A DNA stretch of 64,000 nt from Flavobacterium sp. (GTDB lineage: Bacteria; Bacteroidota; Bacteroidia; Flavobacteriales; Flavobacteriaceae), in assembly GCF_025352015.1 (NCBI RefSeq), contig NZ_JANXUG010000066.1, forward strand, positions 1 through 64,000. The letters are read 5' to 3'. Positions 91 through 12,392 of the stretch are shown one piece after another (within the stretch, counting starts at the first letter, position 1; every line of letters begins with the position of its first letter). A model generated the notes under the pieces. The model did not search any database. It saw only the letters and a list, made by a program, of their open reading frames with translations, and was not told the origin of the DNA. A program made the position numbers and the translations under genes.

Positions 91-513
91 TTAAATTATG
101 AATGAAGATATTTTGTTTTTCATTTCCTCATTAAAAGGTTCTGCTTTAATGTTATTTCGGTCTTCGGCAATGGCTACGTTTACTAATGTTACTTCACCTT
201 CCATGCAGGTTTTTCCTTGTTCGTCTTCAAAGAGGAAACCACAAGTTACAGATGCTACACCCAGCTTTATCACCCAAAGTTTTTTGGTTAAGGTTTCTCC
301 TAAGCGTACCGCTTTTTTGAATTGTACTTTCAAATCCACCGTTGGAATTCCGTTAGTCTCATGAATTTTTGAAAACGGACGCTTTAAAGCTTCTTCGAAC
401 CAATCTTCGACCAAGTCGTTTAGCATTTCTAAAAATCGCGGATAGAAAACAATCCCTGCAAAATCAACATGCTTGAAACGGATTTTTTCCTGTTTTGTGA
501 AAGTTTGGTTCAT
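91..513 (-). CDS. Acyl-CoA thioesterase, 4-hydroxybenzoyl-CoA thioesterase (hot-dog) family
   Basis: A 140-residue protein, the usual size for a single hot-dog domain thioesterase. Near the N-terminus it has FKHVDFAGIVFYPRF, which matches the family signature in which an Asp in an 'xxVDxxGxVyyxrY'-like motif is catalytic. Such enzymes hydrolyse aryl- or acyl-CoA to the free acid and CoA. It lies in the same orientation as the upstream aryl-CoA ligase and monooxygenase genes, so a proofreading or CoA-recycling role for benzoyl-CoA-type esters is a fair inference. A 199-base gap with a palindromic repeat separates it from the gene upstream, so it may have its own promoter. Confidence 0.8.
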   Translation of the reverse strand: MNQTFTKQEKIRFKHVDFAGIVFYPRFLEMLNDLVEDWFEEALKRPFSKIHETNGIPTVDLKVQFKKAVRLGETLTKKLWVIKLGVASVTCGFLFEDEQGKTCMEGEVTLVNVAIAEDRNNIKAEPFNEEMKNKISSFII

Positions 514-587
514 ATTCTTTATGTTTTGCCACAGATTAAACTAATTAGCACAGATTTTTAAATTAATTACTTATCGTTGCAAATATG

Positions 588-706
588 TTTAGCCCGGATA
601 GTAGTGGAAATCCTTTTTATTGTTTTGAAAATAATCATCTCCACTGCGTTCTATGTCACCAAACAATAAAAAGATTGTAACGAATAGCGGGAAATAGCTC
701 CCGAAA
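588..706. repeat. Palindromic intergenic element between operon genes
   Basis: A perfect 13-bp inverted repeat (CTTTTTATTGTTT at 613-625, AAACAATAAAAAG at 661-673) encloses a 35-base loop. It is flanked by AGCCCGGATAGTAGTGG on the left and by AGCGGGAAATAGCTCCCG on the right, the latter with its own short CGGGA/TCCCG pairing. I recall this AGCCC...GCGGGAAATAGC layout as a repeat that recurs in intergenic regions of Flavobacterium genomes, but I cannot confirm copy number here. It sits at the 3' end of the glutamate-synthase-like gene (minus strand) and could end or process transcripts. Just beside it (530-537 and 549-556) CACAGATT occurs twice. Confidence 0.6.
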
Positions 707-712
707 TAAATC

Positions 713-2293
713 CTAAAATTTCTCTACCGAAGCTTTCCTCCAAAAGTACAAAAAATCTAAAGGAACGGTGCCTTCATTTAGCAAACAACCATTATCTAAT
801 TCGGGATATATTTCGTAGAAAGTTTTGACTTGTGTTCTATCGATGCGGGTACTGACGACTGTTCTGTCAACGTCATCTGGGTGTTCAATTCCTGCCGATG
901 CCATCAAATCCATCGCACTTTTTACAGTTTCCTTTTGGAATCGGGCAACTCGAATACTTTTTTCTTCGGGAACCAAGCCTTTCATCAATCTTTCATCTTG
1001 TGTCGCAACTCCAGTCGGGCAAGTATTGGCGTGACATTCCAAAGCCTGGATGCAACCTAGGGCAAACATCATTCCGCGGGCAGAATTGCACAAATCGGCT
1101 CCTATAGAAAGGTTTTTGATAATATCGAAACCAGTAATGACTTTGCCACTGCATATAATTTTGATTTGATTTTTGATTCCGAAACCATTCAGAGCATCGT
1201 AAACAAACGCCAACGCTTCGCGCAATGGCATTCCCACATGATCTGAATATTCTTGTGGCGCCGCACCAGTTCCGCCTTCGCCGCCGTCAACAGTAATGAA
1301 ATCCATATATGTTTTGGTTTCCACCATCGCTTTGCAAATGGATAAAAACTCCGATTTATTTCCGATGCAGATTTTCATTCCGATGGGTTTTCCGCCGGAA
1401 CCTTTTCGCAGTAATTTAACAAAATCCATCAATTCCAATGGCGTTGTAAATACTGAGTGTGTTGGTGGCGAAACAATATCGTGACCTTTCGATACCAGTC
1501 GGATTGCCGCAATTTCGTCGGTTACTTTTTCTTTGGGTAAGATTCCGCCATGTCCAGGTTTGGCACCTTGCGAAAATTTTATTTCAATCATTTTTACGTT
1601 ATCCAAAGTGGCTCTTTCGACAAATTTATCATAAGAAAATTTACCATCATCAGTTCGGCAGCTGAAATATCCAGTTCCAATATTCCAAACGACATCGCCA
1701 CCTTGCAAATGATAGGGAGATAATCCGCCTTCGCCAGTGTTATGGTAAAAACCTCCTTGTTTTGCTCCGTTATTTAAAGCTAAAATGGCATTCTTACTTA
1801 ATGCACCAAAACTCATTGCGCTAATATTAAATAGACTCGCATCGTATGGTTTTTCACATTGGGAAGAGCCAATCTTAACGCGTGGATTTTCATTTACATT
1901 CGAAAATGAAATCGCTCTGATGCTGTGATTTATCCATTCGTAACCTTCGTTATAAACATCTAGTTGTGTTCCGAAAGGTTGTGAATCGATCGCTTTTTTA
2001 CTGCGTTCGTAAACTAAATTTCTTTGCAAACGATTGAATGGTTTTCCTTCTAGATCGGTTTCTACAAAATACTGACGCATTTCTGGACCGAGGGATTCCA
2101 ATAAATAGCGCATTCTTCCCAATAGCGGAAAATTTCTGCGTATGGTATGAATAGATTGGTACATATCATATAATCCCATTAGAATTAACGGAATGAATAG
2201 TAATAATAGGAAACTGAATTTCCAATTGATGTAAGTCAATATGCCAATTATGGTTAAAGATGTTATGGCAAAAAGGACGAATACTTTTCTCAT
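713..2293 (-). CDS. FMN-binding glutamate synthase family protein, membrane-anchored
   Basis: This 526-residue protein corresponds to the FMN synthase domain of the glutamate synthase large subunit without the glutaminase domain. Two hydrophobic helices occupy roughly residues 5-45, so it is probably tethered to the inner membrane. The FMN-site motif GGEGGTGAAP and a CIQALECHANTCP cysteine cluster (C-x5-C-x4-C), which binds a 3Fe-4S centre in this family, are both present. Its ATG overlaps the stop of the upstream CoA ligase by four bases (ATGA), so the two are translationally coupled. Such proteins are often annotated as glutamate synthases, but without glutaminase and NADPH modules the substrate is unknown. 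The operon suggests a redox step or ammonia handling during aminobenzoyl-CoA breakdown, which is inference. Confidence 0.8.
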   Translation of the reverse strand: MRKVFVLFAITSLTIIGILTYINWKFSFLLLLFIPLILMGLYDMYQSIHTIRRNFPLLGRMRYLLESLGPEMRQYFVETDLEGKPFNRLQRNLVYERSKKAIDSQPFGTQLDVYNEGYEWINHSIRAISFSNVNENPRVKIGSSQCEKPYDASLFNISAMSFGALSKNAILALNNGAKQGGFYHNTGEGGLSPYHLQGGDVVWNIGTGYFSCRTDDGKFSYDKFVERATLDNVKMIEIKFSQGAKPGHGGILPKEKVTDEIAAIRLVSKGHDIVSPPTHSVFTTPLELMDFVKLLRKGSGGKPIGMKICIGNKSEFLSICKAMVETKTYMDFITVDGGEGGTGAAPQEYSDHVGMPLREALAFVYDALNGFGIKNQIKIICSGKVITGFDIIKNLSIGADLCNSARGMMFALGCIQALECHANTCPTGVATQDERLMKGLVPEEKSIRVARFQKETVKSAMDLMASAGIEHPDDVDRTVVSTRIDRTQVKTFYEIYPELDNGCLLNEGTVPLDFLYFWRKASVEKF

Positions 2294-3876
2294 GATTTTA
2301 GTTTAAATCTTTGGATTTTTCCAGTTTCTGTTTTGGGTAATGTTTCGGTAAAATAAATTATTCTCGGATATTTATATGGAGCAGCTACTTCTTTGAACCA
2401 TTGTTGAATATGGTTTTTCATATTGTCGGTAGCTTTATGTTTTTCTTTGAGAACAATATGCGCACAAACCAACATTCCACGTTCTTCATCGGGCAAACCA
2501 ACTACAGCACACTCCAAAATATCTTCGTGTGATAAAAGTACGGATTCTACTTCAATTGAAGCGATATTATAACCCGAAGAAATTATCATGTCATCTCCAC
2601 GGGCTACAAACCAAAAATAACCATCTTTATCCTGACGAAAAATATCGCCGGTGATATTCCAGCCTTTTTCAACATATTCTTTTTGCTTCTCGATTCGGTT
2701 TAGGTATTTGCAACCAGTGATTCCTCGAACGACTAATCTTCCGGGTTCATTTGTTGGAACTTCATTTCCTTTCACATCAATAATTTTGGCTTCATAGCCA
2801 GTAATTGCAATTCCCGTCGCACCGGGTCTCATGTTTTCTTCGTTAGAGGAAATGAAAATATGGAGCATTTCGGTAGCACCAATTCCGTCGATGATTTTAA
2901 ATCCGGTTGCGTCGTACCAATCTTGCCACACTTTTAAAGGAAGTGTTTCTCCGGCTGAAACACATTTGCGTAAGCTGGAAATATCAAATTCATTTACTTT
3001 TGAAGTAATGATACGCCAGGCGGTTGGTGCCGTAAAACAAATAGTAATTTTATGTTCTTGAATCGCTTTTAGCAACATTTCAGGCGTTGGTTTTTCTATA
3101 AGGAAAGTGGACGCCCCGAAATACATCGGAAACAATACCAATCCGCCTAAACCAAAAGTGAAACCTAATGGTGGACTTCCCGTGAAAATATCTTTTTGCG
3201 TCGGCTGTAGTGAAAAAGATGGAAATGCTTCGCAAATGTTTAATATATCTTTGTGATAATGCGCTGTCATTTTTGGCAAACCTGTTGTTCCTGATGTAAA
3301 TCCGATTAAGGCAATGCTGTCTGATTTTGAATGATAATTGGTAAATTTTTTTGGTTTGGACTGCATCATTTTTTCGAGTTCATCGTAAAAAGAAGTTTGT
3401 TTCAGAAAATCAGATTTCACCAGATTCATTTCGTCCTGCAAAATTTCGGCACATAAGGCGTGTGAGATTTCGGCACAATCAATAATGGTGGTTAATTCTT
3501 TCGAGCGAAGTAGCGGCATTGTGGCAACAACAATTCCACCAGCTTTTAAAACGGCAAACCAACACGCCACCATCATAGGATTATTGGCAGAACGAATCAA
3601 TACCCGATTTCCCGACTGCAATCCTAAATCATCAACTAAAACGTGGGCAACTTGATTAGCCTTTTCATATAAATCATTATAGGTCCAGGTGGTTTCAAAT
3701 GTTCTGATACACGGATTACTGCCGCGATTTTCCCTGATGTGATTGTCCAATAATTTATCGACACAATTCAGCATTTCAGGACGATTAAACTGTGGTGAAT
3801 CCAAAAAAACATAGTCAGGCTGCAAGACCAAACTTGGTAAATTATCGTGAGCAAAATTGTCTGTGTAATGCCTCAT
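2290..3876 (-). CDS. Aryl-CoA ligase, probable 2-aminobenzoate (anthranilate)-CoA ligase
   Basis: An ANL-superfamily adenylate-forming enzyme of 528 residues. The phosphate-binding loop GFTSGTTGLPK, the adenine-site motif GIGATE, the hinge-side TGD and the C-terminal catalytic lysine in PKTETGKIQ are all seen. Family length and overall look fit benzoate / 2-aminobenzoate-CoA ligases, which activate the aromatic acid with ATP and CoA. The preceding gene on the same strand encodes a monooxygenase/reductase of the type that uses 2-aminobenzoyl-CoA, and only 9 bases separate them. This makes anthranilate the favoured substrate over benzoate or salicylate, though sequence alone cannot prove it. 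Confidence 0.78.
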   Translation of the reverse strand: MRHYTDNFAHDNLPSLVLQPDYVFLDSPQFNRPEMLNCVDKLLDNHIRENRGSNPCIRTFETTWTYNDLYEKANQVAHVLVDDLGLQSGNRVLIRSANNPMMVACWFAVLKAGGIVVATMPLLRSKELTTIIDCAEISHALCAEILQDEMNLVKSDFLKQTSFYDELEKMMQSKPKKFTNYHSKSDSIALIGFTSGTTGLPKMTAHYHKDILNICEAFPSFSLQPTQKDIFTGSPPLGFTFGLGGLVLFPMYFGASTFLIEKPTPEMLLKAIQEHKITICFTAPTAWRIITSKVNEFDISSLRKCVSAGETLPLKVWQDWYDATGFKIIDGIGATEMLHIFISSNEENMRPGATGIAITGYEAKIIDVKGNEVPTNEPGRLVVRGITGCKYLNRIEKQKEYVEKGWNITGDIFRQDKDGYFWFVARGDDMIISSGYNIASIEVESVLLSHEDILECAVVGLPDEERGMLVCAHIVLKEKHKATDNMKNHIQQWFKEVAAPYKYPRIIYFTETLPKTETGKIQRFKLKS

Positions 3877-3885
3877 GATTTGAAA

Positions 3886-6174
3886 TTATTTTTTATTGCT
3901 CTTCGGTTTTAACGCTATTTTCATGTTTTCTACTTGTTTTCTTTCTGCAGCTTTAAGCGGATATAAATGTGAAATTCCCATTTTATACTGATTCGGAATA
4001 TCAGTAGTTTCAAACTGCTCGAAAGCTTGTGCATTTCTAACAAAATTAGCATCGATCAATAATGGTCTGCCTAATGCGACTAAATCTGCCTTTCCGTTTA
4101 GAATAATGGTGTTGATTTGATCAATATCTTGAATGTAACCAGCCGTGATTGTTGGAATATGAACGGTATTCCGAACGAAATCAGAAAACGGTGTTTGCCA
4201 CATTCTGCCGGTTTGTGGTTTTTGATTTGCAACTGTATTTCCTGTTGAAACGTTGATGATGTCTGCTCCAGCATTTTTCAAAGCTGTGGCAATAGTCAAA
4301 ACATCTTCTTCTGAAATTCCGTTTTCTGCCCAATCGGTTGCGGATATTCTAACCGACATTGGTTTCTCTTTTGGAAAAACATTTCTCATTTCGTTGAAAA
4401 CTCGTAAAGGAAATTTCAAACGGTTTTGGATGCTTCCCCCAAATTCGTCTTTTCGGATATTTGTTAAAGGCGATAGGAAAGAAGCTAATAAAAAGCCGTG
4501 ATGCGCTTGTAATTCTATCAGGTCGAATCCAGCTTCGTTCGCATTTATTGCAGCTTGTACAAATTGGTTTGTAACTATATCCATATCAGTGGGAGTCATT
4601 TCTTTTGGAGTAGAAAAATTGTTGTTAAATGCCAATGCCGATGCTGAAATTAATTCCCATGGATTTTGAAGTGCTTCACTTTCCCACGGTTTTTTTGTTG
4701 CTCCTTTTCGACCCGAATGACCAAGCTGAATCCCGATTTTTGTTTGCGTAGTTGCATGAATAAAATCAGTAATTGATTTCCATTTAACTAATTGTTCTTT
4801 AGCATATATTCCTGCACAACCTAAAGTGATACGACCTATTTCTGAAACAGCTGTCATCTCCACTATAATCAATCCGATACCGCCAGTTGCCCGGCTTCCG
4901 TAATGTATCAAATGCCAATCGTTGACCAATCCGTTTTTGGCCGAATATTGTCCCATTGATGACATTACGATTCGGTTTGAAAGCTCTAAATTTCTTAAAT
5001 TGAATTTATTAAATGCTGGTGGCATTTCCACTGCGCTCGATGTGCCAGAATTAAATTCAGATAAAACTTTATCAGTAAACGATTGATCTCTTAACCGCAA
5101 GTTTTCATAAGTTACTTTTTTTGAACGCGTCATGCATCCAAAAGCAAATTTATAAAACGGATGTTTAATGTATCTGTCCATATTTTCAAACCATTCAAGC
5201 GACACATTAGCAGCATGTTGAATCATTTCAACTGTATTTCTTCTTGATTTTTCGTAGTGTTCAAATGCTGCGTTTTTATCATTCGGAAAGGCAACAATGG
5301 CATCAGATAAGGCTATGGCACTTTCCATCGCCATTTTTGTTCCCGAACCAATAGAATAATGAGCTGTAGCTTTAGCATCTCCTAGTAAAACAATGTTGTT
5401 TACATGCCATTTTTCATTGGTTATATTTGGAAATTGCCGCCAATGTGATTTATTAGTAATTAATGAATGTCCTTCTAATTCTTCTTTAAAAATTTCCGCA
5501 ATTTTATTGATGGTATCTGTTTCATTGGTGACTTCGAAACCTGCTTTTAGCCAAGTTTCGTTCGAACATTCAAAAATCCAAGTGCTTCTACCTTTTTCGT
5601 ACTGATAGGAATGTGCTACAAAAGTTCCGAATTCGGTAATTCTAAAAAAATAGGTAAAATCATTTAGGGGTTTTGTAGAACCACACCATACAAAACGGTT
5701 TTTTTGAAGTTCAATTTTAGTTCCAAAATCATCTTGAAATTTATTTCTTATCGCACTTGAAATTCCGTCACAAGCCACAATAATGTCCGAATCTGAAAAT
5801 TGAGATAAGTCGTCAACATTATGTTCAAAATACATTTTTATTCCTTCTTCGACGCATCTTTGTTGTAACAATTGCAATAAAGTTTTTCTTGAACATCCAC
5901 AAAATCCGTTGCCAGAAATGTTTACTTTTTCACCATTGCATGCAATTACAATATCATCCCAGTAGGCAAATTTATCTCTAATTAATTCATACGATTGCAT
6001 ATCGCGTTTCAAGAATTCGCCCAATGTTTCATCAGAAAAAACCACTCCAAAACCAAAACTATCATCCGCTTTGTTGCGTTCATAGATGCTGATTTCACAA
6101 CTTGGAATTGCCTTCTTTGTCAGTATAGAAAAATATAATCCGCCTGGGCCGCCGCCTATTATAGTTATTTTCAT
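3886..6174 (-). CDS. 2-Aminobenzoyl-CoA monooxygenase/reductase-type fusion (FAD monooxygenase + old yellow enzyme domain)
   Basis: A 762-residue two-domain flavoenzyme. Residues 1 to about 375 are a class A FAD monooxygenase, with the dinucleotide fold GGGPGG at the N-terminus and the second FAD motif around GDAKATAHYSIGSG. From about residue 384 to the end is an old yellow enzyme-type reductase (NRIVMSSMGQYS, QLGHSGRKG, HHGFLLASFLSP, ALGRPLL). This architecture and length match the characterised 2-aminobenzoyl-CoA monooxygenase/reductase of Azoarcus evansii, which hydroxylates and then reduces the ring to make it non-aromatic. Databases also call the fusion bifunctional salicylyl-CoA 5-hydroxylase/oxidoreductase, so salicylyl-CoA is the main alternative substrate. 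It is flanked by the ligase and by a flavin reductase-like protein. Confidence 0.82.
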   Translation of the reverse strand: MKITIIGGGPGGLYFSILTKKAIPSCEISIYERNKADDSFGFGVVFSDETLGEFLKRDMQSYELIRDKFAYWDDIVIACNGEKVNISGNGFCGCSRKTLLQLLQQRCVEEGIKMYFEHNVDDLSQFSDSDIIVACDGISSAIRNKFQDDFGTKIELQKNRFVWCGSTKPLNDFTYFFRITEFGTFVAHSYQYEKGRSTWIFECSNETWLKAGFEVTNETDTINKIAEIFKEELEGHSLITNKSHWRQFPNITNEKWHVNNIVLLGDAKATAHYSIGSGTKMAMESAIALSDAIVAFPNDKNAAFEHYEKSRRNTVEMIQHAANVSLEWFENMDRYIKHPFYKFAFGCMTRSKKVTYENLRLRDQSFTDKVLSEFNSGTSSAVEMPPAFNKFNLRNLELSNRIVMSSMGQYSAKNGLVNDWHLIHYGSRATGGIGLIIVEMTAVSEIGRITLGCAGIYAKEQLVKWKSITDFIHATTQTKIGIQLGHSGRKGATKKPWESEALQNPWELISASALAFNNNFSTPKEMTPTDMDIVTNQFVQAAINANEAGFDLIELQAHHGFLLASFLSPLTNIRKDEFGGSIQNRLKFPLRVFNEMRNVFPKEKPMSVRISATDWAENGISEEDVLTIATALKNAGADIINVSTGNTVANQKPQTGRMWQTPFSDFVRNTVHIPTITAGYIQDIDQINTIILNGKADLVALGRPLLIDANFVRNAQAFEQFETTDIPNQYKMGISHLYPLKAAERKQVENMKIALKPKSNKK

Positions 6175-6231
6175 TTCGTCATTTAAAGGAACAAAGCAAT
6201 CTGTTCCTGATTATATTTTTTGTAGAGTTTG

Positions 6232-6837
6232 TTATCCTCTTTTGACAGAAAATAATTCTCCCATTTTTGCATAATTTGAACCTGCCAATCGGGAAATCGG
6301 TTTGTAATATTCTAAATTTATCTTATAATTATCAAATAATACTGAATCGTCAAAGTGCATCATAACTATGCGTCCAATAAGGATACATGCGCCTCCATTT
6401 TTATGATTTTCAAGAAAATAATGATGCACTAGCTTACATTCAAAATTAATTGGGCTTTCTTTCACGCGCATTGGTTTTATTTTCATTGAAGCAATGGGTG
6501 TAACACGAGCCAATTGAAACTCATCTACATCAGCATGAACAGACTGCGCTGTTATGTTCATTTGTTCGGTCAAAGATTCAGTGACCATATTAACCACAAA
6601 TTCTTTGTTTGCCAAAACATTATTGAGTGTATCTTTAGTGGTATTATTACCTATTCCGCTAGAAAACATGAGGTGCGGAGGGTCATCGCCAACAGCATTA
6701 AAATAGGAAAACGGAGCAAGGTTATTAATTCCGTTATCGTCAATAGTCGAAATCCAACCTATGGGTCTTGGAATCACAGATCCTGTTAAAAGTTTGTAAA
6801 TTGCGGTATGCTCTAATTCGTTTGGGTCAAATTGCAT
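6232..6837 (-). CDS. Flavin reductase family protein (FMN-binding split barrel)
   Basis: A 201-residue protein whose opening (YKLLTGSVIPRPIGWIST, then NLAPFSYFNAVGDDPP) is the hallmark of the flavin reductase-like FMN-binding family related to NtaB/DIM6. Members reduce flavin with NAD(P)H or bind FMN for other redox tasks. It is the first gene of the minus-strand aromatic operon, 57 bases before the large monooxygenase/reductase, so it may supply reduced flavin to it. The Azoarcus enzyme uses NADH directly, so a different role is possible. Its upstream region is a 178-base divergent intergenic stretch facing the polyketide cluster, in which no convincing promoter pair was seen. Confidence 0.8.
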   Translation of the reverse strand: MQFDPNELEHTAIYKLLTGSVIPRPIGWISTIDDNGINNLAPFSYFNAVGDDPPHLMFSSGIGNNTTKDTLNNVLANKEFVVNMVTESLTEQMNITAQSVHADVDEFQLARVTPIASMKIKPMRVKESPINFECKLVHHYFLENHKNGGACILIGRIVMMHFDDSVLFDNYKINLEYYKPISRLAGSNYAKMGELFSVKRG

Positions 6838-7015
6838 AATGTTTATTGTTTACCACAAATTAAAGCAATTTTTTTATTTTTTTTCGTAATAATAATTTTT
6901 GACCACACGCTCACAACAATAACAACACTTTTCGATAAAAATAAATGATTATAATGATTTTAATTTAAGAATAATATAACACTTTATCAAATGTATTTTT
7001 TAAATTTACTTCGAT

Positions 7016-8128
7016 ATGAAAAGAAAGGATATTATTATAATTGGTGGCGGTTTAGCTGGTTTAACAGCGGCACTACACTTACTTCAACACGGATTTGAAG
7101 TAGTTATTTTCGAAAAAAATGCATTTCCAAAACATAAAGTTTGTGGCGAGTACATTTCAAATGAAGTGCTGTCTTATTTTAAATCATTGGAAATAGACGT
7201 TGCATCATTACATCCTAAACACATAAATAAACTTATATTTTCTTTGGTTTCGGGTAAAATAATTTCAGCAACTTTACCTTTGGGTGGTTTTGGCGTAAGT
7301 CGTTACGCTTTAGATAATTATTTATACAAAGAAGTTTTACGAAGAGGTGGAGTTGTATTGAAAGAAACGGTTATTGACGTATTTTATTCTGATAATATTT
7401 TTACTATCACCTCTCAAAATGCTGTTCATACTACAAAAGTAGTTTTGGGTGCATTTGGGAAGCGCTCCAATCTAGATGTTAAATTAAATCGTAAATTCAC
7501 ACAAAAACCATCCAATTGGTTGGGTGTAAAAGCACATTATAAAGTAGATTTTCCAGATGATATAGTAGGATTACATCATTTTGACGGGGGTTATTGTGGT
7601 GTGTCAAAGGTCGAAAATAATTTGGTTAACATTTGTTATTTAAGTAGTTATGAAACATTCAAGAAGTACAAAAATATTCAAGAATATCAACAGAAAGTAA
7701 TGGGTAAAAACCCACATTTAAAAGCTATTTTTGCAGAAGCTGTTATGGAATTTGACAAGCCGTTGACGGTAAGTCAGATTTCTTTTGAATCAAAAACTTC
7801 TATTGAAAACCATATGTTGATGATTGGAGATACTGCGGGATTAATTCATCCGTTGTGTGGTAATGGTATGGCGATGGCAATTCATAGTGCTAAATTAGCA
7901 GCTTTGGCTGTGATTCCTTTTATGGAAGGAAAATGGTTGCGAAACGAAATGGAACAACAATACTCAAGAAATTGGAACTTTAATTTCAGAAAGCGTTTAA
8001 AAATTGGGAGAATATTAAGTTACTTGTTGAAGCAAGAAATAATAGCTCCATTAGTGATGAAAATTGTTACAGTTTTCCCTTTTGTTTTGACAAGTATAAT
8101 AAAAAACACCCACGGAAAACCTATATGA
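7016..8128 (+). CDS. FAD-dependent oxidoreductase, geranylgeranyl reductase-like, in polyketide cluster
   Basis: A 370-residue flavoprotein with the FAD-binding motif IIGGGLAGLTAALHL at residues about 7-21, the Rossmann-end acidic motif VIFEKNAFPKHKVCGEY, and the second FAD motif MIGDTAGLIHPLCGNG. This places it among the geranylgeranyl reductase / aromatic hydroxylase-like oxidoreductases. It opens a seven-gene operon that includes a type III polyketide synthase and overlaps the methyltransferase gene by four bases. By analogy with the Streptomyces griseus srs genes, where a flavoprotein hydroxylates an alkylresorcinol to a quinone, it may oxidise the polyketide ring; reduction of a lipid double bond is the alternative. 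Confidence 0.78.
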   Translation: MKRKDIIIIGGGLAGLTAALHLLQHGFEVVIFEKNAFPKHKVCGEYISNEVLSYFKSLEIDVASLHPKHINKLIFSLVSGKIISATLPLGGFGVSRYALDNYLYKEVLRRGGVVLKETVIDVFYSDNIFTITSQNAVHTTKVVLGAFGKRSNLDVKLNRKFTQKPSNWLGVKAHYKVDFPDDIVGLHHFDGGYCGVSKVENNLVNICYLSSYETFKKYKNIQEYQQKVMGKNPHLKAIFAEAVMEFDKPLTVSQISFESKTSIENHMLMIGDTAGLIHPLCGNGMAMAIHSAKLAALAVIPFMEGKWLRNEMEQQYSRNWNFNFRKRLKIGRILSYLLKQEIIAPLVMKIVTVFPFVLTSIIKNTHGKPI

Positions 8129-8850
8129 TTTGGATTAATACACAACAAAGAACGCATCAATTTGAGATCATGGATGATTTTGCTTTAGAGGGCGAAGTAC
8201 TTCGAGAGGCTTTAGATAAAATTGCCAGAATTAATCAACTTCTAGGAGGTAACAAACTAACGTTACAAGGGGTCAAAAGTCTGATAAAGTGTGTTGCTAT
8301 TTCAAAAGAGTTAACCATTGTTGATGTAGGTTGTGGTAACGGCGATATGTTGAGAATCTTGGCGAATTATGGAAAAAAAAATAATCTAAATTTTCGTTTA
8401 ATAGGAGTTGATGCAAATAATTTCACCATTAATCATGCTCGTGATTTATCTGCAAATTATGCTACTATTACGTATCGAAATGAAGATATTTTTGAGCAAT
8501 CATTTCAAGAGTTACGTTATGATATTTTATTGTGTACGCTCACGTTGCATCATTTTAACAACGAACAAATAATAAAATTATTAAATATTTTTAAATTAAA
8601 TTCTAAGCTCGGAATAGTAATCAACGATTTGCAGCGAAGTCAAGTTTCCTATCGTTTGTTTCAAGCGTTATGTTTTGTTTTTAAATTAAACAAAATGTCG
8701 AAAGAAGATGGATTAGTTTCTATTTTACGAGGTTTCAAAAAAGATGAATTGGTTGCCTTTTCAAAACAACTTGGCTTCAAAAAATACACCATTTATTGGA
8801 AATGGGCTTTTCGTTATCAATATATTATCAAAACAAATTTGAGCAACTAA
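8125..8850 (+). CDS. SAM-dependent methyltransferase, in polyketide cluster
   Basis: A 241-residue class I methyltransferase. The SAM-binding glycine motif is VDVGCGNGDML (around residue 70), followed by an acidic residue after the second strand (LIGVDANN), and the LLCTLTLHHF motif common to UbiE/ubiquinone-type enzymes. The start overlaps the previous stop (ATGA) and the next gene starts three bases after its stop, so it is certainly co-transcribed with the type III polyketide synthase. A likely job is O- or C-methylation of the phenolic product, as seen with the methyltransferase in the S. griseus srs cluster. The substrate is inferred from context only. Confidence 0.8.
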   Translation: MIWINTQQRTHQFEIMDDFALEGEVLREALDKIARINQLLGGNKLTLQGVKSLIKCVAISKELTIVDVGCGNGDMLRILANYGKKNNLNFRLIGVDANNFTINHARDLSANYATITYRNEDIFEQSFQELRYDILLCTLTLHHFNNEQIIKLLNIFKLNSKLGIVINDLQRSQVSYRLFQALCFVFKLNKMSKEDGLVSILRGFKKDELVAFSKQLGFKKYTIYWKWAFRYQYIIKTNLSN

Positions 8851-8853
8851 AAC

Positions 8854-9906
8854 ATGAGTGTAAAAATAATAGCTGTAGCCAAAGAGTTGCCAAAATATTC
8901 TCGAACAACTGCTGAAATACTTCCGTTTCTTGAGGCATGGCTTTTTGGTCAGGAAGAACGTTTTATTCGCAAAGTAAAAAAGATTTTTGAAGGCGCAATG
9001 GTCGATAAACGGTATTCAATTATGGATCCCGTAGAGGTTTTTACCAAAACATCTTTTGAAGAACGAAATTCTATTTATGTCCGCGAAGTAATTGCTTTGG
9101 GCCAAAAAGTGTTGACCAAAACGCTAAAAAAAGCCAACTGGAATCCCACCGATTTAGATTATATAATCACCGTTAGTTGTACAGGAATTATGATTCCGTC
9201 GCTTGATGCCTATTTGATAAATTCCTTAAAATTAAAGCAAGACATCGTTCGACTTCCCATTACCGAAATGGGATGCGCTGCTGGAATTTCTGGAATTATA
9301 TACGCAAAGAACTTTTTGCAAGCCAATCCAGGCAAACGAGCAGCAGTTATTGCGGTCGAAAGTCCAACGGCTACTTTTCAGCTTGACGATTATTCTATGC
9401 CAAACATTGTTAGTGCAGCTATTTTTGGTGATGGTGCTGCTTGTGTATTGCTTTCTTCCCATGAAGACGATCATGGAGCAAAAATTCTAGCCGATGAAAT
9501 GTATCACTTTTATGATTCTATTCACATGATGGGATTTCAATTGACTAATTCAGGTTTGCAAATGGTTTTGGATATTGAAGTTCCCGAAACTATAGCGTCC
9601 CATTTTCCTGATATTATTCATCCATTTTTATCAAAAAATAATTTAAAAATTGATGATATTCAACATTTGATATTTCATCCCGGAGGAAAAAAAATTGTGC
9701 AAACAGTTGAAGATTTGTTTTCTGATTTGGGTAAAAATATTAATGATACCAAAGAAGTACTACGTTTATATGGAAACATGTCGAGTGCCACCGTCTTATA
9801 TGTTTTAGAAAGAGTGATGGAAAGCCAACCCAAAAAAGGTGAAAAAGGATTATTATTAAGTTTTGGTCCAGGTTTTTCGGCTCAAAGAATTTTAATTGAA
9901 TTTTAA
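8854..9906 (+). CDS. Type III polyketide synthase (chalcone/stilbene synthase family)
   Basis: A 350-residue ketosynthase-fold enzyme with the whole type III catalytic triad: Cys141 in ITEMGCAAG, His in IFHPGGKK and Asn in LYGNMSSAT. Bacterial members extend an acyl starter with malonyl-CoA and cyclise it to alkylresorcinols, alkylpyrones or tetrahydroxynaphthalene. The neighbours encode a dedicated ketosynthase, dehydratase and acyl carrier protein, which suggests a fatty acyl starter made on a private carrier. An alkylresorcinol or alkylpyrone product is therefore more likely than a small aromatic, but the product cannot be read from the sequence. Confidence 0.9.
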   Translation: MSVKIIAVAKELPKYSRTTAEILPFLEAWLFGQEERFIRKVKKIFEGAMVDKRYSIMDPVEVFTKTSFEERNSIYVREVIALGQKVLTKTLKKANWNPTDLDYIITVSCTGIMIPSLDAYLINSLKLKQDIVRLPITEMGCAAGISGIIYAKNFLQANPGKRAAVIAVESPTATFQLDDYSMPNIVSAAIFGDGAACVLLSSHEDDHGAKILADEMYHFYDSIHMMGFQLTNSGLQMVLDIEVPETIASHFPDIIHPFLSKNNLKIDDIQHLIFHPGGKKIVQTVEDLFSDLGKNINDTKEVLRLYGNMSSATVLYVLERVMESQPKKGEKGLLLSFGPGFSAQRILIEF

Positions 9907-9907
9907 A

Positions 9908-10336
9908 ATGTACCACGATATTTTAACCAAATTGCCTTATGCAAAGCCATTTCTTTTTGTAGATAAATTGAGGCATTTAGACGAAAATGGTGTAAAAGGA
10001 AGTTTTACTTTTTCTTCCGATTCTGATTTTTATAAGGGTCATTTTAAAGATAATCCGGTAACTCCAGGCGTTATTTTGACTGAAACTATGGCGCAAATTG
10101 GCGTTGTTTGTTTGGGTATTTATTTACTGGGAAATAATTTTAATAGTAACACCAAAATAGCTTTAACTTCATCCGAAATTGAATACTTTAAACCAGTATT
10201 TCCTGGCGAAACAGTAACTGTTATTTCAGAAAAAATATATTTCAGATTTGGTAAATTAAAATGCAAAGTAAAAATGATAAATTCTAAAAGCGAAGAGGTG
10301 TGTTCTGGAACAATTGCTGGGATTGTCAAAATCTAA
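9908..10336 (+). CDS. 3-Hydroxyacyl-ACP dehydratase, FabZ-like hot-dog protein
   Basis: A single hot-dog domain of about 142 residues. The motif GHFKDNPVTPGVILTETMAQ holds the catalytic His and Glu in the same arrangement as FabZ (GHFP-N-P-MPGV-x-E-AQ), so it should dehydrate 3-hydroxyacyl-ACP to the enoyl form. The ORF track starts at a TTG at 9896 inside the polyketide synthase gene. The ATG at 9908, one base after that gene's stop, is preferred. It sits between the type III synthase and a ketosynthase, so it most likely acts on acyl chains held by the cluster's own carrier protein rather than in bulk fatty acid synthesis. Confidence 0.82.
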   Translation: MYHDILTKLPYAKPFLFVDKLRHLDENGVKGSFTFSSDSDFYKGHFKDNPVTPGVILTETMAQIGVVCLGIYLLGNNFNSNTKIALTSSEIEYFKPVFPGETVTVISEKIYFRFGKLKCKVKMINSKSEEVCSGTIAGIVKI

Positions 10337-10363
10337 AATCGTTAATCTTAATTCGATAATCAA

Positions 10364-11632
10364 TTGAAAAGAGTAGTCATAACAGGACTTGGTGTTGTCG
10401 CTCCAAACGGAGTTGGACTAGCTGCATTTACCAATGCCATCAAAAATGGTGTTTCTGGAATAAAGCATGATGCTGAACTAGAAAGGCTGCATTTTTCTTG
10501 TCAAATTTCGGGAACTCCAGAGATTTCACAAGAATTAAAAGCACAGTATTTTTCCGAATTGGAATTGCGTAATTTTAATTCCACAGGTATTTTATATGGA
10601 GTAATTGCCGGAATGGATGCCTATAAAGATGCCGGATTACTTATAGAAAATAATGAAAACCCCGATTGGGATTCTGGGACAATATTTGGCACAGGAACTT
10701 CGGGTATTGAAAAATTTCGTGAAAGTATTTATAAAATTGATGATTTTCAAACCAGAAAACTGGGAAGCACCGCTGTAGCTCAAACTATGAATAGTGGTGT
10801 AAGTGCATATCTTGGTGGAAAATTAGGACTAGGAAATCAGGTCACGACCAATTCTTCTGCATGTACTACAGGAACCGAAAGCATTTTGATGGCGTATGAA
10901 AGAATAAAGCTTGGACAAGCATTTCGTATTATTGCAGGAAGTACGAGCGACAGCGGCCCCTATATTTGGGGCGGATTTGATGCAATGAAGGTTTGTACTT
11001 TTAAACATAATAATTCACCAGAAAAAGGTTCAAGACCAATGTCGGCAACAGCTTCTGGATTTGTGCCAGGAAGTGGAGCAGGAGCTTTATTACTCGAAGA
11101 TTTAGGAAGTGCTTTGGCACGTGGTGCACGAATTTATGCCGAAGTCTTGGGTGGAAATAGTAACTCTGGTGGACAACGCGGTTCAGGAACCATGACGGCT
11201 CCAAATGGCGTTGCGGTTCAAAAATGTATCATAGATGCGTTGCAAAATGCAGCAATTTCAGCGCGCGATATTGATGTCATTAACGGACATTTAACCGCCA
11301 CAAGTAAAGATAGTTTTGAAATACAAAATTGGAGTGAAGCTCTGCATCTAAAAGGGTTGGATTTTCCTTTTATCAATTCATTAAAATCAATGGTAGGACA
11401 TTGTTTATCAGCAGCGGGAAGTATAGAAAGTGTGGCTTCGGTATTACAAATTTATGAAGGATTTGTTTTTCCCAATAGTAATTGTGAAGATTTAAATCCC
11501 GATATTACAACTATTATTGACCCCTCTAGAATTCCCCAACAATTGATAAAAAAAGAGATTACTATCTTGGCCAAAGCAAGTTTTGGATTTGGGGATGTAA
11601 ATGGATGTGTAATTTTTAAAAAATACAAATAA
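10364..11632 (+). CDS. Beta-ketoacyl-ACP synthase (FabF/KAS II family), in polyketide cluster
   Basis: A 422-residue condensing enzyme starting at TTG (MKRVVITGLGVVAPNG is the expected family start, and no ATG is in frame there). The active-site Cys lies in NSSACTTGTESI, and the two His residues in INGHLTATSKDS and MVGHCLSAAGS, so the Cys-His-His triad is complete. It should elongate acyl-ACP with malonyl-ACP by decarboxylative condensation. Unlike a chain-length factor it is catalytically competent. Its position next to a private acyl carrier protein and dehydratase, with no ketoreductase or enoyl reductase in the cluster, suggests that the missing reductive steps are borrowed from primary fatty acid synthesis. 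Confidence 0.88.
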   Translation: MKRVVITGLGVVAPNGVGLAAFTNAIKNGVSGIKHDAELERLHFSCQISGTPEISQELKAQYFSELELRNFNSTGILYGVIAGMDAYKDAGLLIENNENPDWDSGTIFGTGTSGIEKFRESIYKIDDFQTRKLGSTAVAQTMNSGVSAYLGGKLGLGNQVTTNSSACTTGTESILMAYERIKLGQAFRIIAGSTSDSGPYIWGGFDAMKVCTFKHNNSPEKGSRPMSATASGFVPGSGAGALLLEDLGSALARGARIYAEVLGGNSNSGGQRGSGTMTAPNGVAVQKCIIDALQNAAISARDIDVINGHLTATSKDSFEIQNWSEALHLKGLDFPFINSLKSMVGHCLSAAGSIESVASVLQIYEGFVFPNSNCEDLNPDITTIIDPSRIPQQLIKKEITILAKASFGFGDVNGCVIFKKYK

Positions 11633-11637
11633 AACTA

Positions 11638-11892
11638 ATGGATAAAGCAGCAACAATAGAAAAATTAAAAGGGATTATAAAACCTTTCGTAAAAAATCAA
11701 GAAGCATACGATGCATTAAATGAAAACACTGATTTTATTACTGATTTAAATATCAATTCTTCCAATTTAGTGGACATAGTTTTGGATGTTGAAGAGACAT
11801 TTAAAATTGATATCGATAATGAATCTATGGAGAAGATGCTTACGATTAAGGCGGCATTAGCCATAATTGAAACCAAATTAGCTCAAAAGTGA
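11638..11892 (+). CDS. Acyl carrier protein, cluster-specific
   Basis: An 84-residue helical, acidic carrier protein. Aligning TDLNINSSNLVDIVLDVEE with the classical DLGADSLDxVELVMxxEE motif puts the phosphopantetheine attachment at Ser41, in NSS instead of the usual DSL. The flanking helix II (VDIVLDVEETF) is normal for the family. It begins five bases after the ketosynthase and its stop overlaps the start of the phosphopantetheinyl transferase gene, which probably charges it. The non-canonical DSL motif suggests partner-specific recognition by the cluster's own enzymes, which is inference. Confidence 0.85.
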   Translation: MDKAATIEKLKGIIKPFVKNQEAYDALNENTDFITDLNINSSNLVDIVLDVEETFKIDIDNESMEKMLTIKAALAIIETKLAQK

Positions 11893-12392
11893 TTGGAAAC
11901 GACATTATAGATTTAACACTAGCGCAACAAGAAAGTAATTGGAAACGTACAGGTTTTGTAGAAAAAATATTTACACCATCAGAACAAGTACTTATTTCAA
12001 CTGCTAATAAACCTGAAATAATGGTTTGGTATTTATGGAGTTTGAAAGAAGCAGTGTATAAAATTTATAATCGTCAGACACTTATTCGAGCTTTTATGCC
12101 ATTAGAATTAGAATGTTTTGACATAACTATGAAGAATAAGAAGAACTACGGAAAAGTACGTTGCTTAAATACAATTTATTACACCCAAACTGCAATTACC
12201 ACAGAAAGTATTGACACCGTAGCGGTTCTCAATAGCAAAGACTTTGAAAGAATTAAAACTTTAGATAATACTGTTTCTGTTAAAAAAACTAATGGAATTC
12301 CGAATTATTATTGCTCTGATTCTTTGTCTTTTAAGCCATTTTCCAAAAGCCACCATGGGAGGTTTCAGCGCATCGTAGCTTTGATGGATTAA
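11889..12392 (+). CDS. 4'-Phosphopantetheinyl transferase superfamily protein
   Basis: A 167-residue protein with the two family signatures: GNDIIDL near the N-terminus (Mg-binding Asp) and WSLKEAVYK (WxxKEA-type) around residue 55. Such enzymes transfer phosphopantetheine from CoA to the serine of carrier proteins. It starts at GTG, overlapping the carrier protein stop by four bases (GTGA), so it is the last gene of the seven-gene operon and its target is very likely the adjacent carrier protein. It is shorter than Sfp (about 220 residues) and longer than typical AcpS (about 125). Confidence 0.85.
   Translation: MIGNDIIDLTLAQQESNWKRTGFVEKIFTPSEQVLISTANKPEIMVWYLWSLKEAVYKIYNRQTLIRAFMPLELECFDITMKNKKNYGKVRCLNTIYYTQTAITTESIDTVAVLNSKDFERIKTLDNTVSVKKTNGIPNYYCSDSLSFKPFSKSHHGRFQRIVALMD

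Follow-up and report, generated by a model that had tools for sequence, protein, structure and literature searches.

The subject of this analysis is a unit of seven genes centered on a type III polyketide synthase (PKS), which occupies positions 7016-12392 (forward strand) of a 64,000-nucleotide stretch (hereafter, the window) of contig NZ_JANXUG010000066.1 from Flavobacterium sp. (assembly GCF_025352015.1); the genome comprises 2.6 Mb, and its closest relatives are Flavobacterium. Each gene of the unit abuts or overlaps the next:

6838..7015, no strand: AT-rich intergenic region of 178 bp between divergent genes, upstream of the unit
7016..8128, +: flavin adenine dinucleotide (FAD)-dependent oxidoreductase, 370 aa, flavoprotein of the p-hydroxybenzoate hydroxylase (PHBH)/geranylgeranyl (GG)-reductase type (profile and fold searches)
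8125..8850, +: S-adenosylmethionine-dependent methyltransferase (MT), 241 aa, PRK06202-like (profile searches)
8854..9906, +: type III PKS, 350 aa, Cys141-His275-Asn308, Phe228 at the resorcinol-marker position (profiles, alignment)
9908..10336, +: FabZ-like 3-hydroxyacyl-acyl carrier protein dehydratase (DH) (profiles, alignment)
10364..11632, +: FabF/FabB-like β-ketoacyl-acyl carrier protein synthase (KS), 422 aa, TTG start, Cys-His-His intact (profiles, alignment)
11638..11892, +: acyl carrier protein (ACP), 84 aa, phosphopantetheine Ser41, motif INS (NCBIfam, alignment)
11889..12392, +: 4'-phosphopantetheinyl transferase (PPTase), 167 aa, GTG start, motifs IGNDxxD and WSxKEAxYK (Pfam, alignment)

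The FAD enzyme and MT genes overlap, as do those for the ACP and the PPTase, and gaps of 3 bp (MT-PKS), 5 bp (KS-ACP) and 27 bp (DH-KS) separate others; the PKS-DH gap is 1 bp when the DH gene starts at ATG 9908, with an alternative listed start, TTG 9896, located 12 bp upstream. The promoter of the unit likely lies in the intergenic region 6838..7015, in which we found no convincing match to the Bacteroidetes -33/-7 promoter. The PKS matches Pfam families PF00195 (E 1e-20) and PF02797 (E 3e-18) above the cut-off, and its Cys-His-Asn triad is invariant in 116 of 116 relatives, so that both the chalcone/stilbene synthase fold and the triad place it among the type III PKSs; identity with DpgA (3,5-dihydroxyphenylacetyl-coenzyme A (CoA) synthase) was rejected (175 bits, against an NCBIfam curated cut-off of 425). 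The remaining core enzymes are similarly well preserved among the relatives: the DH has the FabA/FabZ fold (PF07977, E 2e-13) with its His/Glu pair invariant in 115/115, the KS belongs to PF00109/PF02801 with Cys-His-His invariant in 113/113, the ACP has no Pfam match and is recognized by the NCBIfam ACP model (E 2e-10) with Ser41 invariant in 111/111, and the PPTase belongs to the ACPS/Sfp family (PF01648, E 5e-11) with Asp5, Lys53, Glu54 and Lys58 invariant in 96/96. The first-pass annotation, which described seven tightly packed genes for these enzymes with intact PKS and KS catalytic residues, is thus confirmed in gene positions, family assignments and residues.

A search across genomes for the seven-gene order and the PKS clade, as that annotation had suggested, was carried out, and the gene order was read in 100 related loci spanning Flavobacteriales, Sphingobacteriales and Chitinophagales. 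The order FAD enzyme-MT-PKS-DH-KS-ACP-PPTase is fixed in 83 of these loci, a level of conservation far beyond chance; nine more carry the first six genes with no detectable PPTase, two have no detectable MT, and the remaining loci either run into a contig end or contain a split unit, a homologue at greater distance or another trio. The PPTase is unrecognizable downstream of the ACP gene in one branch (L159-L161, L163, L164 and the Aequorivita loci L090, L100, L102, L108, L109 and L120), where it is either divergent, encoded elsewhere or replaced by another PPTase. In the genome with the split block (G030), the ACP and PPTase genes are absent beside the KS gene, and the contig encodes the clade ACP at a distance of ~17 kb. 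Named carriers of the unit include Flavobacterium, Kaistella, Halpernia, Myroides, Aequorivita, Winogradskyella, Polaribacter, Pedobacter and Chitinophaga.

The distribution of individual genes agrees with inheritance of the unit as a whole. Among 37 genomes of the same genus, the window's own included, the PKS is present in 19 at 75-100% identity and in one more at 62%. In a set of 60 relatives, the KS of the clade was found in 18 of the 19 close-relative genomes that encode the clade PKS (a count that includes the window genome) and in none of the 41 genomes that lack this PKS; in the one exception, the contig stops within the KS gene. Across the phylum, the clade PKS (at least 590 bits) is encoded in 36 of 393 sampled Bacteroidota genomes (~9%), with the score dropping to 238 bits for the next best PKS. 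In the 24 Bacteroidota loci with lower-scoring type III PKSs that we read, no DH, KS, ACP or PPTase genes were found nearby; six of these loci contain a PKS-MT-FAD enzyme trio, and the others contain neither. As judged from these gene neighborhoods, the DH-KS-ACP-PPTase block marks a single PKS clade. A separate observation concerns a member of the same genus (G016; L167 / L050) with a quite different PKS-MT-FAD enzyme trio (24-34% identity) and without the block, which makes it a natural control.

The window genome encodes housekeeping counterparts of the block elsewhere, namely an ACP and FabF on contig C106, FabZ on C78, and PPTases on C48 and, with a weaker match, on C80, and therefore the block can be justifiably called a private module. 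In 29 of 113 relatives, this module is extended by a gene for a short-chain dehydrogenase/reductase of ~265 aa that is inserted between the PKS and DH genes in, among others, Chitinophaga, Aequorivita, Winogradskyella and Flavobacterium agri. The best NCBIfam model for this protein is the FabL enoyl-ACP reductase (144 bits against 121 for the next, under the curated cut-off of 328 bits), and the best solved structure is FabL as well (3oic, 136 bits against 101). Its Tyr168 and Lys175 are invariant, with the Tyr-x6-Lys spacing that is typical of enoyl reductases, rather than Tyr-x3-Lys; together with the FabL best matches, this identifies the protein as FabL-like at a score below the curated cut-off. 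About seven gains or losses are needed to explain the distribution of the gene on the tree. The presence of a predicted enoyl reductase in the operon independently supports a private reductive module for chain building.

The first three genes comprise a type III PKS adjoining an MT and an FAD oxidoreductase, that is, a trio of the srs/hid/pkq type. The FAD enzyme and the MT, a class I enzyme, score below the respective cut-offs (NCBIfam GG-red-SF, 103 bits, and PRK06202, 128 bits). In the fold search, the top Protein Data Bank matches of the FAD enzyme are FAD halogenases, closely followed by hydroxylases and a geranylgeranyl reductase-like protein, all at ~20% identity or less. FAD halogenases carry the motif WxWxIP. 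In its place the enzyme has GGYCGVSK, and with this low identity and the close scores of the hydroxylases, a halogenase was rejected. Homologues of the MT adjoin type III PKSs in Planctomycetota, Proteobacteria and Deinococcus, and a search with the MT retrieved trios from Paludisphaera, Paracoccus, Psychrobacter and Deinococcus. The enzyme set of Gimesia maris, a comparable trio, apparently C-methylates alkylresorcinols (PMC10896814), and hence the methyl group is not necessarily placed on oxygen, as it would be in the methoxylated phenolic or quinone lipid proposed by the first-pass annotation. The two remaining proposals of the first-pass annotation on gene content hold as well: the private ACP/KS/DH/PPTase module is upheld by co-inheritance and the separate housekeeping copies, and the trio of the srsABC kind is a recognized arrangement, also known from hidABC and pkq.

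Comparison with known systems shows where the unit departs from them. The srsABC genes of Streptomyces griseus and the pkq operons encode a PKS, an MT and a flavoprotein hydroxylase or oxidoreductase that produce phenolic-lipid ethers and quinones (PMC9927152, PMC5916927); unlike the window unit, they include no dedicated fatty-acid module, and their PKSs possess the resorcinol Trp that the window PKS lacks (PMC5916927). The hidABC (hierridin-type) and planctomycete operons encode the same three classes of enzymes but consist of three genes only, in another order, without a private ACP, KS, DH or PPTase; the Paludisphaera proteins are 23-29% identical to those of the window, and the PKS has the marker Trp rather than Phe. 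In the ars cluster of Azotobacter vinelandii, a dedicated fatty acid synthase (FAS) encoded alongside the type III PKSs feeds them directly from its ACP (PMC6274091, PMC5916927). The window unit likewise combines dedicated FAS parts and an ACP with the PKS in one cluster, but as discrete type II-like proteins, in contrast to the large type I FAS of ars; the accounts consulted describe no MT/FAD enzyme trio in the ars cluster. In the pathway of CylI (cylindrocyclophane), too, the type III PKS is preceded by ketosynthases and a dedicated, free-standing ACP (PMC8086630), whereas modular type I PKSs, a halogenase and a dimerizing enzyme, and the absence of a DH-KS-ACP-PPTase block, set this pathway apart. 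Finally, the plasmid pKN1 of Sphingobium yanoikuyae (L194, 2486-6805) carries an uncharacterized ACP-KS-PKS-MT-FAD enzyme locus in which a trio is likewise combined with an ACP and a ketosynthase, but this KS is only 26% identical to that of the window, there is no DH or PPTase, and the PKS has Trp. This locus is probably, judging by its proteins, an independent assembly, and given its distant KS and missing DH and PPTase, carrier proteins have probably been joined to the trio more than once. A literature search that covered only a minor part of the subscription papers yielded no study of a product or an enzyme of the clade; surveys flag such clusters as 'T3PKS'. The unit is a real, conserved and apparently uncharacterized version of the type III PKS operons of the trio type, set apart by its private type II-like fatty-acid module.

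The PKS itself differs from its better-known relatives at the active-site pocket. In ArsB, SrsA, FtpA and PKS10/PKS11 (Trp230 of PKS11), a marker Trp is tied to resorcinol formation (PMC5916927). This residue, which characterizes alkylresorcinol-forming PKSs, is absent from the window PKS: the position is Phe (Phe228) in 115 of the 116 clade members and Met in one, as opposed to Trp in all 34 non-clade loci sampled, including those from Planctomycetota, Proteobacteria and Deinococcus. Therefore, a resorcinol product cannot be deduced by analogy with SrsA or HidC. Substitution of Gly for Phe252 of the fungal enzyme ORAS favored pyrones (PMC8086630); Phe228 is a possible equivalent of this residue, so its presence neither establishes nor rules out a resorcinol. 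Pro171, Ala173, Met216 and Gln344 are further clade-specific residues; Ala173 is found in CylI as well, with Leu in nearly all others, and CylI also lacks the marker Trp. The predicted model of the PKS (pLDDT 74.5) has PKS11 as its best Foldseek match (TM 0.81) and is of low confidence at residues 171-190 and 221-245, segments that contain the pocket. The nearest solved structures include CylI, but the closest by sequence is PKS11.

The seven intact genes thus keep a fixed order, are inherited as a unit and differ from the housekeeping fatty-acid genes. Taking this evidence jointly, we consider it reasonably probable that they form one lipid-biosynthesis operon, in which a chain bound to the private ACP is passed to the PKS, cyclized, methylated and oxidized, yielding a lipid of the phenolic, quinone or pyrone type. 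Under this scheme, in which each catalytic step is predicted from the observed gene content, intact residues and co-inheritance, the PPTase would load the private ACP, and the KS and DH would build a fatty acyl chain on it, drawing on primary metabolism for a ketoreductase and an enoyl reductase, the latter being the operon's own in the relatives with the FabL-like gene. The type III PKS would then accept this ACP-bound chain, which might be a β-ketoacyl-ACP following an unreduced KS round, add malonyl units from malonyl-CoA and cyclize the product, and the MT and the FAD enzyme would methylate and oxidize the ring to yield a membrane-soluble lipid. The ACP-to-PKS transfer is suggested by analogy: acyl chains bound to ArsA pass directly to ArsB/ArsC, two Streptomyces enzymes, germicidin synthase and SCO7671, use hexanoyl-ACP (PMC6274091), and the proposed starter of HidC is a C14 acyl-ACP (PMC8086630). 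As for the products, planctomycete trio PKSs make alkylresorcinols (PMC10896814) and the pkq operons make respiratory polyketide quinones (PMC9927152), so that by the latter analogy a respiratory-quinone role is possible for the product of the window unit.

Several observations weigh against this scheme. The replacement of the marker Trp by Phe leaves the predicted ring chemistry unsettled. No ketoreductase was seen in the unit of any clade member and most Flavobacterium members also lack an enoyl reductase there, so that chain building in them rests on unproved borrowing; the first-pass annotation proposed borrowed reductases, which may hold for the ketoreductase but not for the enoyl reductase of the 29 relatives with the FabL-like gene. 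Furthermore, Lys40 and Lys43 of the PKS, which we take to be CoA-phosphate-binding positions, are invariant in the clade, and CoA starters may accordingly be possible. It could thus be that the PKS starts from ordinary acyl-CoA or from acyl groups on the housekeeping ACP, as its counterparts in srs, hid and pkq do, the block acting later or separately, for instance, to make an acyl group for attachment to the finished ring. The conserved basic residues would fit, as would the fact that the trio functions by itself in many bacteria and in other members of the phylum, but the block is strictly co-inherited with one PKS clade, the clade-specific residues P171, A173, M216, F228 and Q344 suggest a PKS adapted to it, and the acyl-transfer enzyme to be expected is not encoded in the unit; we regard this explanation as unlikely.

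Less likely still appears a scheme in which the final KS round goes unreduced and its β-ketoacyl-ACP is handed to the PKS, with the DH and the enoyl reductase active in earlier rounds only. Such a route would account for the missing ketoreductase and resembles that of CylI, which was crystallized with a β-ketoacyl-N-acetylcysteamine thioester and shares Ala173 and the loss of the marker Trp with the clade; nevertheless, the DH, along with the FabL-like protein in 29 relatives, implies complete reductive cycles, and CylI, in addition to being more distant than PKS11, sits on a long branch of the tree. The divergent genes upstream of the unit (91-6837, reverse strand) encode a 4HBT-type thioesterase, a glutamate-synthase-like flavin mononucleotide (FMN) protein, a benzoate-CoA-ligase-family enzyme, a bifunctional salicylyl-CoA 5-hydroxylase-like protein (963 bits, below the cut-off of 1078) and a flavin reductase, a set that looks like degradation of an aromatic acid, perhaps anthranilate, via CoA thioesters. 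Given that these genes adjoin the unit in the window, they might be thought to supply an aromatic-CoA starter for a quinolone or similar compound; however, they lie on the opposite strand and were found near the unit in none of the 20 close loci examined, and the lack of conservation makes this link highly improbable.

Other neighbors (AcsA, IlvC-like, exonuclease-like and similar proteins) reflect lineage synteny and were rejected as partners. In some marine relatives, genes for YceI-like lipid-binding proteins lie directly upstream of the unit (L128, L126, L129, L155, L156 and L158) and genes for large MMPL/RND-type transporters lie downstream (L122, L124, L126 and L129). These proteins may export or carry lipid; in the window, neither gene is found beside the unit.

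We tentatively put forward a more specific possibility, on balance doubtful, of a system restricted to Bacteroidota in which a discrete type II-like FAS (KS, DH, enoyl reductase and private ACP) passes an ACP-bound, possibly β-ketoacyl chain on to a type III PKS whose pocket is remodeled by Phe in place of the resorcinol Trp, yielding a membrane lipid of an undescribed ring type that might serve, for example, as a redox carrier or an envelope lipid. The unit would offer a tractable case of a type II-like FAS that feeds a type III PKS and whose discrete proteins lend themselves to reconstitution, and the Trp-to-Phe change in the pocket is a natural test of the effect of one residue on ring chemistry. 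Bacteroidota are known for menaquinone; if the unit yields a quinone, a respiratory or envelope lipid may have been overlooked in this phylum.

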